Shown here: piece after piece, positions 2,588 through 11,463 of the stretch | How the letters are laid out: each line of letters begins with the position of its first letter | Position numbering within the stretch: position 1 is the first letter of the stretch | Origin: Coprothermobacter proteolyticus DSM 5265 | GTDB taxonomy: Bacteria > Coprothermobacterota > Coprothermobacteria > Coprothermobacterales > Coprothermobacteraceae | Length of the DNA stretch: 64,000 nt | Reading direction: 5' to 3' | Assembly (NCBI RefSeq): GCF_000020945.1 | Contig: NC_011295.1 | Span: 806,001-870,000, forward strand | The notes under the pieces: generated by a model | What the model saw: only the letters and a program-made list of their open reading frames with translations | What the model was told of the DNA's origin: nothing | The model's database searches: none | Made by a program: the position numbers and the translations under genes

Positions 2588-3016
2588 TTATATCCTAAAA
2601 ATAACATTAACAGGACCGTCGTGCTTCATCGTTATTTCCATGTACGATCCGAACACACTACAAACCTTTTTCTTCGCATCCAAACTGTTACAAAACTCCT
2701 CAAACAACGATTTCGCCTCTTCAAAAGGCAAAGCGTTATCAAAAGACAGCCTTCTACCTTCTACAAAGCCAGCCAAGGTAAAATTACTTACAGCCATTAC
2801 ACTGCCGTCAATGTCCTTCAAAGATAAGCCTAGCCGCCCATTCTCATTCTCGAAAATTTTGATGTCACTAACCTTTAAAGCTCCTCTTCTAACGTTTTCA
2901 GTGTTGTCTCCTTTTTCCAGACCTACAAAACATACAAGTCCCTTGTCAATAGATCCGATCTCTTTCCCATCACAAGTAATAGATGCACTGCTCACTCGAG
3001 AGATTACAAGTATCAT
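2588..3016 (-). CDS. dtd: D-aminoacyl-tRNA deacylase
   Basis: Cytoplasmic editing enzyme that hydrolyses D-amino acids (and glycine from tRNA-Ala) from mischarged tRNA. The 142-residue protein matches Dtd end to end: RVSSASITCDGKEIGSI at the N-terminus, the nucleotide-pocket motif as SNFTLAG (family SQFTL), and the Gly-cisPro loop as DGPVN (family NxPVT). Two normally conserved side chains are therefore replaced (Q to N, T to N), while the Gly-Pro pair is kept. It is the last gene of the operon and overlaps the rel stop by 4 bp. A rel-dtd pair is a common arrangement in bacteria. Confidence 0.9.
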   Translation of the reverse strand: MILVISRVSSASITCDGKEIGSIDKGLVCFVGLEKGDNTENVRRGALKVSDIKIFENENGRLGLSLKDIDGSVMAVSNFTLAGFVEGRRLSFDNALPFEEAKSLFEEFCNSLDAKKKVCSVFGSYMEITMKHDGPVNVIFRI

Positions 3017-5130
3017 TGTTTACCCTTCACCACCTCAATGATCTCTGGCATTTCAGACAGTTTGTTAAGTATGACCTGAAAATCGTCTTTGTTCTTCAGT
3101 TTTACTTCAACCAAGATCTTGATCTGTTCAATCCGTTGTCTCCTTTGAACAGTGATCTTGTCTATGTTCAGACCAGCCACGGCGAAAACAGAACCGATGT
3201 CAGCCAAAAGCCCTAAACGATCCCTAGCAGTGATTTTGATGTCCACAGGATAGCCATCCTTATTCTTGGCTCCATGCAGCTGATCCCAACTAAGTGAAAT
3301 AGTCTTGCTAGCATCACTTACATTCTTGCAGTCAGCGGCATGGACCACTATGCCGTGGCCACTCTCTACAACGCCAACAATGTCCTCTGGAGGAAGTGGG
3401 CTACAGCACTTTGCAAGGCGGTATGGAATACCAGTCACACTGCTAACGGATGTTTGCTCTTTTGTGGCTACTGTTTTGCTTTCCTCGTCTTTAGCTAATT
3501 CGGGCGCAATAAGTCCCAAATTTCTAAGGACTAAATCCAGCGAGGACTGGTTCTTTAAGATATTGATTAACGTTGATTCCACATTCATGTTCTTGGATTT
3601 TAGTGTGTCGATGAATTCTTGGTATGTGAGATCGTACCTTTTTAGAGATTCTTCCAGCAGCTTTCTTGAATCTTCAATGATCTCTTGTCTATCTCTCTTA
3701 CGGAACCAGCTATTTATTTTATCTGCAGCGTGAGCAGTCTTAACTATTTTAAGCCACTCTATGCTAGGGCCAGAACGATTCTTGCTCGTTATTATTTCTA
3801 CACGATCGCCCATTTCAAGCTGTTTATCTAGTGGAACCCATGCACCATTTACCCTTGCTCCCACAGCGTGATGTCCAATCTCCGTATGTATGCGGTAGGC
3901 AAAGTCAAGAACAGTAGCACCCTTGGGTAGTGAAACTACGTCCCCTTTTGGGGTGAAGACCAGTATTTCTTCTTTAAGGGTGTCCATCACCGCCTCAGTT
4001 ATTTCGTCAGTACTCTTCACCTTCTCATCTTCAAAAGCGAAGACCTGCTCCAGCCAATTTATCCTCTCCAAAGTGGATTTAGGAGTGACGCCCTCTTTAT
4101 AGGCCCAGTGTGCAGCAACACCGTATTCAGCGACTTGGTGCATGTACCATGTTCTGATCTGAACTTCTAGTGGTAACCCTTTAGGACCGATGACGGTAGT
4201 ATGTAAACTCTGATAAAAGTTTGGTTTCGGTAAAGCAATATAATCTTTTAACCTTCCAGGGATAGGTGGCCACACAGCATGAACTAATCCCAGAGTAACG
4301 TAGCATTCCTCTTCAGTATTTAGGATTATCCTTAGTCCCATTAGATCGAATATTTCGTCAATGGTTTTGTTTTGAGTAAGCATCTTGGTGTAAACAGAAT
4401 ACAGGTGCTTCATTCGCCCTTCAACTTTAGCTTCCATGCCACGCGCTCTTAACATGTCTTCAACTTTAGTTCTCGCCTCTTCAATAACTTCTCTCTGACC
4501 TCTTAGCTTTTGATTTACCAAAGTCGAGATATACTCGTATTGTTCTGGATAAAGTGTCTTGAAAGCAAGATCTTCTAATTCCCATCTAATCCTGTAAACA
4601 CCCAAACGGTGAGCTAAAGGAGCATAGATGTCCAGTGTTTCTTTGGCCACCCTCTTTTGCTTATCAGCAGGTAGATATTGTATGGTGCGCATATTATGGA
4701 GCCGATCTGCCAGTTTTACTATGACCACACGAGGATCTTGAGCTGCACTTAAGAAAAGCTTGCGCAGATTCTCCTTTTGAGCACCTTCCCAGCCCGTACC
4801 TTTTGGTAACTTTCTTAGTTTTGTCAAACCGTCTACAAGAAGCGCTACCTCTGTACCAAAGTTTTCTTCAACATCCCTTAGCGTTACAGGCGTATCCTCC
4901 ACCACATCATGTAGAATTCCAGCAATTATAGATTCTTGGTCAGCATACAACTCAGCTAAAATCAGTGCGACTCTGAGGGGATGAACCATGTAGTCCTCAC
5001 CAGAGCGTCGTTTTTGACCACTATGAGCTACGCCAGCAAACTCAATAGCTCTTTCAATCTTTTCTGGATCACCTATGTAAGAAGAAACCTTTGTGACAAG
5101 CTCGTCTTTCAGCTTTTTCAGACTGTCAAT
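3013..5130 (-). CDS. rel: (p)ppGpp synthetase/hydrolase, RelA/SpoT family, with non-canonical start
   Basis: Bifunctional stringent-response enzyme. Domains in order: HD hydrolase (LHDVVEDT), synthetase ([21 protein letters not shown]), TGS ([19 protein letters not shown]), a conserved C-terminal Cys pair ([14 protein letters not shown]) and ACT. The first ATG in frame is at 4989, but 47 conserved codons precede it, reading [15 protein letters not shown] then [18 protein letters not shown]. No ATG, GTG or TTG occurs between the stop at 5155 and 4989. I place the start at ATT 5130 because AAGGTG lies eight bases upstream; CTG at 5121, overlapping the apt stop, is the alternative. This gives 705 aa, a normal Rel length. 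It is coupled to apt upstream and dtd downstream. Confidence 0.88.
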
Positions 5131-7873: not shown

Positions 7874-8968
7874 TTACTCACCTATTATACGTTTTCTCCA
7901 TTGGTAACGGATTTCCTCTTTCAAGCTATCAACGGAGCCACCTTCAATAGCTGCTCGTAATTTCCGCGTTAAATCAGCCATGTAGGAAAGGTTTTCCACT
8001 GTGGCAACGAAAAGCCCTAGCGGTTCCCCAGCCTTAAAAAGGTGATGCAGATAACCGTAGGTGTATTGCGGCTGATACTCTAAGGGTCTAAAATCAAACT
8101 TGTATTTTCCTCGAACAATGACCTGAGGTCCATCTTGCCAAGAGTAAACCCAGCCATGCCTTGCATGTCTTGTTGGCTGAACACAGTCAAACATGTCTAT
8201 ACCCATACTAGCGAGTTCAACAATTTGCACAGGGTCGCCTACTCCCATCATGTATTTAGGTGCCTGTTTAGGTAACGCATCCAGCACCTCGTAAGTTAGC
8301 TCATACATGAGTTCTTCTGGTTCGCCCACAGACAGTCCACCAATGGCGAATCCATCAAAAGGAAGAGAAGCAGTCAGTGCTGCGCTTTCACGTCGAAGAC
8401 GTTTGCTGAAGCCACCCTGAACGATGCCAAACCGTTTTTGACCTTGTAGCGGCTCCACAGACAAGAATCTTTCTCCCCACCTAAGTGTCACATCCATCGC
8501 TTTTTTAGCTTCACTTTCACTAGCAGGATAACCCAAGCACACATCTAGCTGCATGGCAATATCGCTGCCTATAATGTTCTGAGCTCGAGCAACGAATTCG
8601 GGAGTAAAGAAGAATTTTGTTCCATCTATGGGAGATCTGAATTCCAAGCCATTGTTCCTAATCTTCATGGAATGCTTGAGTGAATAGATCTGAAAACCTC
8701 CGCTATCAGTTAACACGTTTTTATCCCAGCCCATAAAGCGATGGGTCCCGCCGATCTTCTCCAAAACTTCAAGCCCTGGTCTAAGGACTAAGTGATAAGT
8801 ATTGTTAAGAATCAAACTGTACCCTAACTGCTTAAGTTCATTAAGGGGTGCAACCCTTATGGCCCCTCTGGTAGCAACTGGCATGTAGACTGGCGTTGTT
8901 ACAATACCATGATTTAAAGAAAGTTGCCCAGTTCGTCCCTTATCTGTTTCCTTGAATATCTCAAACAT
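7874..8968 (-). CDS. tgt: Queuine/preQ1 tRNA-guanine transglycosylase lacking the zinc site
   Basis: Exchanges G34 of GUN-anticodon tRNAs for the queuosine precursor preQ1 (or queuine). Catalytic features are present: LTDSGGFQ, MQLDVC (substrate Asp), IVQGG, the AIGGLSVGE loop and the nucleophile Asp in GIDMFDCVQPTRHARHG. The C-terminal CxCxxC zinc motif is absent: where the family has CDCPVC followed by YLHHL, this protein reads RPLEYQPQYTYGYLHHL. The fourth ligand His (family HNL) is Glu in TVENL. The start is ATG 8968 (GGGTG six bases upstream) rather than the in-frame TTG at 8989. At 364 aa it is near normal length. It sits in an operon with queA and queH. Confidence 0.93.
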   Translation of the reverse strand: MFEIFKETDKGRTGQLSLNHGIVTTPVYMPVATRGAIRVAPLNELKQLGYSLILNNTYHLVLRPGLEVLEKIGGTHRFMGWDKNVLTDSGGFQIYSLKHSMKIRNNGLEFRSPIDGTKFFFTPEFVARAQNIIGSDIAMQLDVCLGYPASESEAKKAMDVTLRWGERFLSVEPLQGQKRFGIVQGGFSKRLRRESAALTASLPFDGFAIGGLSVGEPEELMYELTYEVLDALPKQAPKYMMGVGDPVQIVELASMGIDMFDCVQPTRHARHGWVYSWQDGPQVIVRGKYKFDFRPLEYQPQYTYGYLHHLFKAGEPLGLFVATVENLSYMADLTRKLRAAIEGGSVDSLKEEIRYQWRKRIIGE

Positions 8969-8985
8969 ATCGAACACCCTAACTT

Positions 8986-10008
8986 TCAAAGTATGAGCAT
9001 GGCATCGCCTAAGCTGTAAAACTTGTACTCTTCCTCAATGGCGTGCCTGTATGCCTTTAAAATAAGATCCGGTGTTGCAAAAGAGGATACCAACAGGAGC
9101 AAACTGGTCTGGGGAAGGTGAAAATTCGTCACAAGCTTGTCAACGACCTTCCAGCTGTAACCAGGCTTAATAAACAATGATGTATCCGAAAACACCGAAT
9201 TTAGTTTCCCGTCATCACATGCTGCTGATTCCAAGCTTCTAACCACCGTTGTTCCCACTGCAAAAACGCTGTGCCCGGATTCCTTCGCTTCATTGACAGT
9301 TTTGGTCGTTTCAGCGGAGACGAAGAACGTCTCTTGATGAAGTTCACTCTTCTCTTGCCAATCCGATGCTAGTGATTCAAAGGTACCGAGCGCCACATGT
9401 AAAGTTACGTAAGAGATTTTTACTCCCATGTTCTTCAGATCTTGCAGCAGATTTTCAGTGAAATGCAGACCTGCAGTAGGAGCTGCCACAGCACCAGGTT
9501 TCGAGGCAAACACTGTTTGATATTCTTCGGCTGGCACTTTTCTTCTTATATAAGGAGGAGTCGGTACCTCTCCCCAATCGTCCAGATAACTATCAAGCTC
9601 TTGAGCAGACATCCCCAGTTCAATGATCGCTGTTCTCTCTGTACGTTCCAAGAGCTTGACTTCTGCTCCGCCGTTTAACAAGAGCACCTCGCCAATTTTG
9701 ATTTTTCTAAGCGGTTTAAGGAGGCACTCCCATACATTATCTCTTAATGGTCGAACAAGCAGAATTTCCACTGCGCCACCAGTTTTTCTGCGTCCCTTTA
9801 TTCGTGCTTTTAGTACCTTTGTGTTATTAAGCACTAGTACATCACCAGGCTTAACGTAATCCTTGATCTGATAAAAGCGCTTGTCCTCCAAAGTACCAGT
9901 ATCACGATGAACCACTAGTAGCCTACAAGCATCTCTGGGGTCACTTAACTTCTGAGCAATAAGGTGTTTTGGCAGTTCGTAATTGAGTAGTTCCTCCAAA
10001 GCTGACAA
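8986..10008 (-). CDS. queA: S-adenosylmethionine:tRNA ribosyltransferase-isomerase
   Basis: Third-last step of queuosine synthesis: moves the ribosyl group of SAM onto preQ1 in tRNA to give epoxyqueuosine. Signature stretches are present: NYELPKHLIAQ near the N-terminus, DVLVLNNTKVLKARIKG, AAPTAGLHFT and TNFHLPQTSLLLLVSSF. The start is placed at TTG 10008, seven bases after GGAGG. In-frame GTGs at 10023 and 10017 would overlap that ribosome site and the queH stop. The product is 340 aa, usual for QueA. It lies between queH and tgt, so three consecutive genes serve the same modification. Confidence 0.94.
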   Translation of the reverse strand: MSALEELLNYELPKHLIAQKLSDPRDACRLLVVHRDTGTLEDKRFYQIKDYVKPGDVLVLNNTKVLKARIKGRRKTGGAVEILLVRPLRDNVWECLLKPLRKIKIGEVLLLNGGAEVKLLERTERTAIIELGMSAQELDSYLDDWGEVPTPPYIRRKVPAEEYQTVFASKPGAVAAPTAGLHFTENLLQDLKNMGVKISYVTLHVALGTFESLASDWQEKSELHQETFFVSAETTKTVNEAKESGHSVFAVGTTVVRSLESAACDDGKLNSVFSDTSLFIKPGYSWKVVDKLVTNFHLPQTSLLLLVSSFATPDLILKAYRHAIEEEYKFYSLGDAMLIL

Positions 10009-10013
10009 ACGTT

Positions 10014-10577
10014 TCACCTCCACAGCTGCTCAAACCTTTGCACTTCTCGCTCTAAAAGCGAGCCGTAACAACCACAGTAATTTTGAACATAGATGCCCAT
10101 ATCCTTCAGCTCTCTCATCTTATTCATATACTCTTCATGGGTCACCTCAAAATAATACACCTGTATGGAAAGCTTGCTTTCAATGGCACTTAATATCCCG
10201 CGCAGTAAGTCTTGGTTTTGAGTAGGAGAACTTAGCAATGTAGTGGTAAACATGTCAAAACCTCTTTGCTTTGCGCTGTTTGCGGCTTCAGTTAGCCTCA
10301 AGTCATAACAGAAAGCACATCTTCTACTGAAAAGCAGTTCATGAAGCTCCTTCTTTGGTAACTCCGGAATAACTTCTCCACTTACAGACAAAAGCTCACA
10401 CACATTCAAGAAAGACTGGGCTCTATTTATCCACTCGCTAGGTGGCTCAATATTGGGGTTAAAGAAACTTCCCAACATTGTGTCCACTTGGGGCAAATGT
10501 GAAAAAGAAGCATATAGGCATGGCCCACAGCAGCTATGAACAAATAACCTTTTCGTATGCTTTCCATCCTTTGTCAG
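10014..10577 (-). CDS. queH: Epoxyqueuosine reductase QueH, non-canonical start
   Basis: B12-independent final enzyme of queuosine synthesis, reducing epoxyqueuosine to queuosine with an Fe-S cluster. Family motifs: FFNPNIEP, RRCAFCYDLRLTEAA, TTTLLSSPTQN and YCGCYGS. From the first ordinary start (TTG 10496) the protein would lack the essential N-terminal cysteines. The same frame continues upstream and encodes KRLFVHSCCGPC, the family CCxPC motif, inside the end of ruvB. No ATG, GTG or TTG lies upstream of it before the stop at 10578. The candidates are CTG 10577 (GGAAG eight bases upstream, used here) and ACG 10556. The gene overlaps ruvB by 44 bp. Confidence 0.85.
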   Translation of the reverse strand: MTKDGKHTKRLFVHSCCGPCLYASFSHLPQVDTMLGSFFNPNIEPPSEWINRAQSFLNVCELLSVSGEVIPELPKKELHELLFSRRCAFCYDLRLTEAANSAKQRGFDMFTTTLLSSPTQNQDLLRGILSAIESKLSIQVYYFEVTHEEYMNKMRELKDMGIYVQNYCGCYGSLLEREVQRFEQLWR

Positions 10578-11463
10578 TTAACTTTCTTCCACGGCTTGTG
10601 ACTGTCACGAATCCGAGCATCATCAGGTACGGCTCAACAACCCCTTCAAGGGTTTCTACATCCATTCCCAGAGCTGATGCAAGTACTCTGATGCCAGAAG
10701 GACCTCCCTTAAATGTCTCTGCTAGCGTTCTAATGTAATCTTTGTCTAAGGGAGACAAGCCATATTCATCAATGTTAAGTAGATTAAACAAATCAATGAT
10801 TGCTCCTACGTCTAACGTTTCAAGATGATTGAGCGCGGCATATTCCACCACTCTTCTGCAAATCTGTAAAGCCTCGCGCGGGGTTCCTCTACTCCTTTTA
10901 GCAATCTCCCGCAAGGCTTCAGCAGAAATATCCAACCCTTGCTGTGCTAGTTCTTCTTTTATAATCTTCCCTATTTCCTCTTCGCCGTAGTAGTTAAAAG
11001 AGATCTTTATGGAGAATCGACTTAAAAATGGCTTACTTAAGAAAGAAATCTTTGTCGTCGCTCCGATTAGAGTGAAAGGCTGAAGATCAAACTTGATTAT
11101 GCGAGCAGTCTTATTCTTACCAACCATGACTCTGATAACTTGCTCATCCATGGGAGCATAGAGAAGCTCTTCTACCGATTTTGGTATGCGATGAATTTCA
11201 TCTATAAAAAAAACCGTAGGACGTGAAAATGAAAGAAGTATGTTTAGAACATCTTTCACATTGGTTAGGCTATTACCTGTGGTCTCAACAAAATTCGCTG
11301 CCACTTCCTGAGCCACCAGCCTGGCTAGAGTGGTTTTACCCAAACCAGGAGGGCCAAAAAAGAGCATATGATCGGGCATTTTGCCAAGCTTCTTAGCTGC
11401 TTCCACACTAAAGGATACTGAGGATACGGCAGTTGTTTGGCCAACAAACTCTTTAAGTTCCAT
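10534..11463 (-). CDS. ruvB: Holliday junction branch migration helicase RuvB
   Basis: AAA+ motor that drives RuvA-bound Holliday junctions. It has Walker A GPPGLGKTT, Walker B FFIDEIHR, the sensor stretch FTLIGATTK and Arg finger region FLSRF, followed by the C-terminal winged helix (LGFVTVTSRGRKLTDKG). The start is ATG 11463, overlapping the ruvA stop as TAATG with GAAGG upstream. This gives 309 aa, shorter than the usual 330-350, and lacks the N-terminal RPxxLDE segment: it begins MELKEFVGQ. The conserved LSAPLRDRF block is replaced by LSKPFLSRF. Divergent but likely functional. Operon yebC-ruvC-ruvA-ruvB. Confidence 0.93.
   Translation of the reverse strand: MELKEFVGQTTAVSSVSFSVEAAKKLGKMPDHMLFFGPPGLGKTTLARLVAQEVAANFVETTGNSLTNVKDVLNILLSFSRPTVFFIDEIHRIPKSVEELLYAPMDEQVIRVMVGKNKTARIIKFDLQPFTLIGATTKISFLSKPFLSRFSIKISFNYYGEEEIGKIIKEELAQQGLDISAEALREIAKRSRGTPREALQICRRVVEYAALNHLETLDVGAIIDLFNLLNIDEYGLSPLDKDYIRTLAETFKGGPSGIRVLASALGMDVETLEGVVEPYLMMLGFVTVTSRGRKLTDKGWKAYEKVICS

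Follow-up and report, generated by a model that had tools for sequence, protein, structure and literature searches.

The queH gene of Coprothermobacter proteolyticus DSM 5265 very probably starts at an ACG codon (position 10556), at which the ordinary initiator tRNA would initiate weakly, probably with help from coupling to the upstream gene ruvB. The codon lies in a window of 64,000 nucleotides (G000:C1:806001–870000, where G000 denotes the window genome, a single contig of 1,424,912 bases). Coprothermobacter is heat-loving, QueH is a tRNA-modifying enzyme, and ACG is usually thought to be too weak to matter as a start signal. The features discussed here are listed in Table 1.

Table 1. Features of the queH and rel regions, in window positions.
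Feature	Position	Strand	Basis
rel (RelA/SpoT homologue), read from ATT	3013..5130	-	HD_4, RelA_SpoT, TGS, and ACT domains
ATT, inferred rel start codon	5128..5130	-	ATT in 5/5 family genomes
tgt, queuosine pathway gene	7874..8989	-	PF01702, 395.7 bits
queA, next queuosine gene	8986..10017	-	PF02547, 394.7 bits
queH CDS, ACG to stop, 180 aa	10014..10556	-	PF02677, 125.8 bits; PDB 7lc5, E 7e-24
TTG, first ordinary in-frame start codon	10494..10496	-	3′ of CCGPC
CCGPC motif (TGC TGT GGG CCA TGC)	10518..10532	-	Direct reading; 5/5 family genomes
ruvB, last 23 nt overlap queH	10534..11463	-	Pfam RuvB_N and RuvB_C
ACG, inferred queH start codon	10554..10556	-	ATG/GTG at the same column in relatives
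AAGGA, Shine–Dalgarno-like site of queH, inside ruvB	10567..10571	-	Scan score 12
CTG, alternative start proposed earlier	10575..10577	-	CTG in G000, G002, and G001

The queH reading frame and its start column

The queH frame was read directly on the minus strand, where it opens after a TAA (10580–10578) and its stop codon ends at 10014. Its first codons are CTG (10577) ACA AAG GAT GGA AAG CAT ACG (10556) AAA AGG TTA TTT GTT CAT AGC, and the next five, TGC TGT GGG CCA TGC, encode CCGPC. The product is (M)KRLFVHSCCGPC, with ACG 10556–10554 at the position of the M. A preliminary description of this DNA had placed CCGPC upstream of every ordinary start codon, and the frame bears this out: no in-frame ATG, GTG, or TTG lies 5′ of the motif, and the first one is TTG 10496. 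The ORF from this TTG encodes 160 residues, lacks CCGPC, and is shorter than the ACG form by the first 20 residues. Because it lies downstream of CCGPC, TTG 10496 is not credible as the start. Gene finders in common use are generally limited to ATG, GTG, and TTG as starts; queH would therefore be annotated as the 160-residue protein without CCGPC, and the enzyme would look dead.

Read from ACG, the protein covers positions 1–172 of the 175 in the PF02677 profile (125.8 bits; cut-off, 23.5). In the alignment with a solved epoxyqueuosine reductase QueH of the same family (PDB 7lc5, E 7e-24, presumably from Thermotoga maritima), residue 4 of the query falls on residue 4 of the chain; the N-terminal segment is thus in register with the ACG start, and numbering from ACG agrees with the solved protein. 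CCGPC, CAFC, and CGC are all present and aligned with 7lc5, which differs in having CCAPD where Coprothermobacter QueH has CCGPC. An N-terminal CC.P and later Cys pairs are motifs of QueH (PF02677), and both occur here. As judged from these sequence features, the queH frame is a real gene. We assign its product to the epoxyqueuosine reductase family PF02677, and its activity is predicted from the family match and from the context of queA and tgt, since queH, queA, and tgt are adjacent in that order. QueG (TIGR00276) had no match in G000, and its one hit in G002 was a weak fragment that scored well under the cut-off. QueH thus has no obvious substitute in G000, given that QueG was not matched there.

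A search of 41 genomes gave queH matches in 23. Start regions were compared for 17 of the 23 loci and for two more (L002 and L004), and four others, including those of G007 and G008, were left out. The start column sits eight codons before the first Cys. It reads ACG in G000 and in two sister Coprothermobacter genomes (G002 and G003), ATG in two further genomes of the family (G001 and G004), and GTG in two genomes of the order (G005 and G006). The queH ACG therefore differs by one base from AUG, at the very column where relatives have ATG or GTG.

The codons downstream of this column behave as coding sequence. Past the ruvB stop, the 12 codons that begin at the first Cys and end directly ahead of TTG 10496 comprise seven identical and five synonymous codons and no amino acid change between G000 and G003. 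Against G001, three of the same codons are identical, six are synonymous, and three change the amino acid; against G004, there are also three amino acid changes. Because these 12 codons show no amino acid change between G000 and G003, the frame 5′ of TTG 10496 is not chance read-through, and the pattern of substitution indicates that the queH codons before this TTG are under purifying selection. The TTG itself is TTG in G002, TTA in G003, ATT in G001, and CTG in G004. A functional QueH that begins at TTG 10496 has in its favor that ordinary start codons yield this ORF, but it would lack CCGPC together with the preceding segment that aligns with the solved QueH, its start codon is replaced by TTA in G003 and by ATT in G001, and selection acts on the codons that it omits; we regard it as scarcely believable.

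The sequence on the other side of the column is of a different kind. Of the seven queH-frame codons 5′ of ACG, four are identical and three change the amino acid between G000 and G003, and two are identical and five change the amino acid between G000 and G001. From CTG 10577 up to ACG, these seven codons are poorly conserved except in G002. The preliminary description had offered CTG 10577 or ACG 10556 as the start. Its second option agrees with the ATG or GTG of four relatives; its first is disfavored, as the CTG of G000, G002, and G001 (three of the five family genomes) is replaced by CCG in G003 and by CTC in G004. Comparison of the aligned genomes thus shows the start column, its variants, and the selection on the protein downstream.

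Initiation context and coupling to ruvB

An AAGGA sequence stands at the usual spacing from ACG 10556 and is at the same time ruvB coding sequence; on the scale of our Shine–Dalgarno scan, the quartiles of called ordinary starts are 8.5, 13, and 16. RNA structure predicted over the queH start did not rise above that of shuffled sequences (z +1.09). In the mechanism that we propose, the AAGGA site inside ruvB would place the initiator tRNA at ACG, whose middle base would be mismatched with the CAU anticodon of fMet-tRNA. Initiation at ACG is expected to be very weak, and ribosomes that end ruvB translation about 20 nt further on would probably help it. Coupling to ruvB is plausible with an overlap of 23 nt, and it would aid the use of a codon, not replace one. 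From these features, we infer that ribosomes use the ACG, that coupling assists them, and that QueH output is low. A low output would likely be tolerated, or even favored, given how few tRNAs the enzyme acts on. Initiation from all 64 codons has reportedly been measured in E. coli in one study.

Coupling could also be taken to do most of the work, with queH starting at AAA 10553, AGG 10550, TTA 10547, or CTG 10577. The 23-nt overlap and the CTG shared with G002 and G001 are consistent with such a start, and ribosomes are known to re-initiate after termination (PMC2268962). Moreover, alignment alone cannot separate AAA and AGG, which stand beside ACG, from ACG as the start. Against these codons, it is only at the ACG column that relatives have ATG or GTG; AGG is replaced by AAG in G003 and G001 and by GGT in G004; and the CTG column reads CCG in G003, itself a genome with ACG. 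We therefore consider a start at one of these neighboring codons unlikely, and initiation at ACG remains the preferred reading.

The same 23-nt overlap, and the fact that the queH frame is +1 relative to that of ruvB, would allow a RuvB–QueH fusion made by +1 frameshifting before the ruvB stop. However, the genomes share no slippery run (GAA AAG GTT ATT in G000 versus GAA GAA GTT GTT in G003), and a conserved slippery site, as expected of a programmed +1 frameshift, was not found by eye in the last ruvB codons of the five genomes. The ATG or GTG that four relatives carry where queH would start also speaks against a fusion, which we consider very improbable.

A special initiation apparatus was considered as well. 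For a changed initiator tRNA, the stem-loop GGGCTCATAACCC was found once per genome in nine of nine genomes, and every tRNA that ARAGORN called in the five scanned loci was a tRNA-Met with anticodon CAT; by these sequence criteria, nothing marks the initiator tRNA as unusual. IF3, which discriminates between start codons, has both of its domains in G000. Its C domain carries RGRERA or RGRERS in four sequences of the family (L037–L040), and G020 also has RGRERA; RGREMxH occurs in four of 13 other IF3 sequences, with sequences extracted from 17 of 31 loci. Because the motif varies in other bacteria too, and only 17 of the 31 loci were caught, it gives no evidence of a changed IF3. Elevated IF3 is reported to inhibit non-canonical starts in E. 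coli and also re-initiation, less so with a Shine–Dalgarno site (PMC2268962). In vitro work on IF3 has used AUU and ACG mRNAs beside AUG (PMC8266586).

Origin and persistence of the ACG

The start column of queH overlies the ruvB codons TAY GAA, and the Tyr-Glu that they encode is kept in five of five family genomes. Because of this TAY-GAA, only ATG or ACG is possible at the queH start with RuvB unchanged, and a change from ATG to ACG is silent in ruvB (TAT to TAC). Most simply, the ancestral queH start in the family would have been ATG, and the change to ACG would have taken place before G000, G002, and G003 diverged and then not have been reversed; none of the three genomes has returned to ATG. 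Overlaps of this kind would offer a simple route to the erosion of a start codon, by a change that leaves the protein of the upstream gene unaltered.

The clade with ACG is not young, as judged from sequence divergence: in 25 aligned ORFs, 1603 of the 3068 fourfold sites carry different bases in G000 and G003. Among 104 TAC Tyr codons of G000, 76 are also TAC in G003 and 28 are TAT. Since the clade is old and 28 of 104 TAC codons became TAT, a return to ATG was within reach; since the other 76 were kept, however, retention of ACG in three species is not proof of selection. The comparison shows that ACG is tolerated as the putative queH start, from which a preference for ACG does not follow.

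An error in the sequence, which the preliminary description had named as a possible refutation, is countered by the same ACG in three genome records. That ACG is one base from ATG would fit such an error, or a recent loss-of-function mutation, but with identical ACG codons in three records and purifying selection on QueH continuing across the fourfold-site divergence given above, either one is extremely unlikely. Sequencing error, pseudogene, and frameshift all fit the data poorly. If the ACG of queH has indeed been kept through at least two speciations, such starts would be overlooked and not impossible, and its survival through the split of three species suggests that a start signal held to be "too weak" can be a stable choice.

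Other non-canonical starts and known systems

The preliminary description had noted a non-canonical start in rel as well and raised the possibility that this organism turns to such codons more often than is usual. The remark on rel holds, as its frame has no ATG, GTG, or TTG until 4989. Rel, encoded in the gene cluster that also holds queH, is a stringent-response enzyme with an apparent infC-type start codon across the family. From the ATT to the His of AH..QKR.SGE there are 36 codons, equal to the distance from the rel ATG in G007 and G008; the rel genes of G005 and G006 have a longer N-terminus and are uninformative on this start. The ATT overlaps the end of apt by 13 nt, and part of the conservation at the rel start may be due to this overlapping gene end.

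Start codons were screened over 464 kb of G000 (one-third of the genome) against collinear stretches of G001 and G004, by a method that misses cases near an ordinary start. One screen looked for conserved residues before the first ordinary start in 477 conserved ORFs, some of which are not real genes. It listed 36, of which rel, infC, yceD, and queH were kept by eye; the other 32 had an ordinary start just downstream or were RNA genes and overlaps. The other screen, of 409 ORFs, looked for an ordinary start in both relatives with none within three codons in G000; it listed 17, and queH and coaE were kept.

In infC (G000:C1:537772), ATA follows AGGAGG in four family genomes, G003 being the one in which the gene was not found. 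Immediately behind the AGGAGG of G004 there is a GTG as well, three codons ahead of the ATA, and in G000 and G002 a GTG lies ten codons downstream of the ATA. Apparently, going by this alignment, infC starts at ATA in the four genomes. In yceD (PF02620; G000:C1:456928), ATA was read in five family genomes, in G000 with a 4-nt overlap with the stop of the gene before it. The N-terminus shows little conservation, and an ATG follows three codons later in G001; a start at ATA is probable. In coaE (PF01121, 41.2 bits; G000:C1:658396), which overlaps the end of the upstream gene, ACG stands behind AAGGTGA in G000 and G003, and G001 and G004 have an ATG that is offset by one codon in the alignment; the gene was not found in the incomplete G002. 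As counter-evidence, a TTG with a Shine–Dalgarno-like score of 11 follows seven codons later in G000, and in G003 an ATG lies a further two codons along. A start at either would shorten the N-terminal strand that precedes the P-loop. Less surely than queH, coaE may be a second case of an ACG start.

The candidates amount to five of 477 ORFs (about 1%), with coaE and yceD uncertain. The suggestion of more frequent use has some support, in that rel, infC, probably yceD, and possibly coaE join queH in 464 kb; with the screens confined to genomes of the family, a true excess is no more than a possibility. In G000, four of the five candidate starts overlap the upstream gene by at least 4 nt, compared with 149 of 450 called ordinary starts, a set in which some of the candidate genes may be present with an ordinary start forced on them; with n = 5, this excess is only suggestive. 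We consider it possible, although doubtful, that the clade of G000, G002, and G003 has a relaxed start choice in which ACG is a regular and stably inherited start (queH, perhaps coaE) beside ATT (rel) and ATA (infC, yceD), mostly inside the ends of upstream genes, where terminating ribosomes would offset the weak codon.

In the reverse direction, five of 372 ORFs were listed for G001 and none was kept, and nine of 364 were listed for G004, with one kept as a CTG candidate. The ORF at G000:C1:647451, which has ATG in G000 and G001, has a homologue in G004 with CTG behind AGGAGG. A CTG start of wecB was rejected, a GTG lying three codons upstream in three of three genomes. When starts were ranked by the Shine–Dalgarno score alone, the top place went to a non-canonical codon in 83 of 282 ORFs; most of these codons lay within genes, and the ranking was too noisy to use. 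In a wider listing inspected by eye, 62 of 279 ORFs had no shared ordinary start column.

The closest known systems are the infC genes of E. coli, which starts at AUU, and of S. aureus, with AUA, where a near-cognate start is combined with a Shine–Dalgarno site as in queH. Their mismatch falls on the third codon base, whereas that of the queH ACG falls on the middle base, and we know of no IF3 autoregulation of queH. In pcnB of E. coli (AUU) and in cvfC1 (AUU), ccpN, and citZ (AUA) of S. aureus, a weak start codon limits output; output was measured for these genes, whereas queH is known by sequence comparison alone and uses ACG. S. aureus infC is reported to start at AUA, and weak-start reporters in that species reached about 10% of AUG in poor medium (PMC13009471). 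ACG also stands in the start position in the DNA of chloroplast genes in which it is edited to AUG, editing that is reported not to be observed in bacteria (PMC9845219); none is proposed for queH. A reconstruction of start switches in 36 genome groups counted, among 61,358 ancestral AUG starts, two changes to CUG and one to AUU (PMC5622118). The string ACG is absent from the text of that article as available to us, and we suspect that the study drew on starts as annotated, among which an ACG would not show. In our searches of the openly licensed literature, as far as its text was accessible, an ACG start native to a bacterium did not come up. For AUU and AUA, bacterial examples are on record (PMC13009471), and queH would add, by comparison of genomes, a case of ACG.
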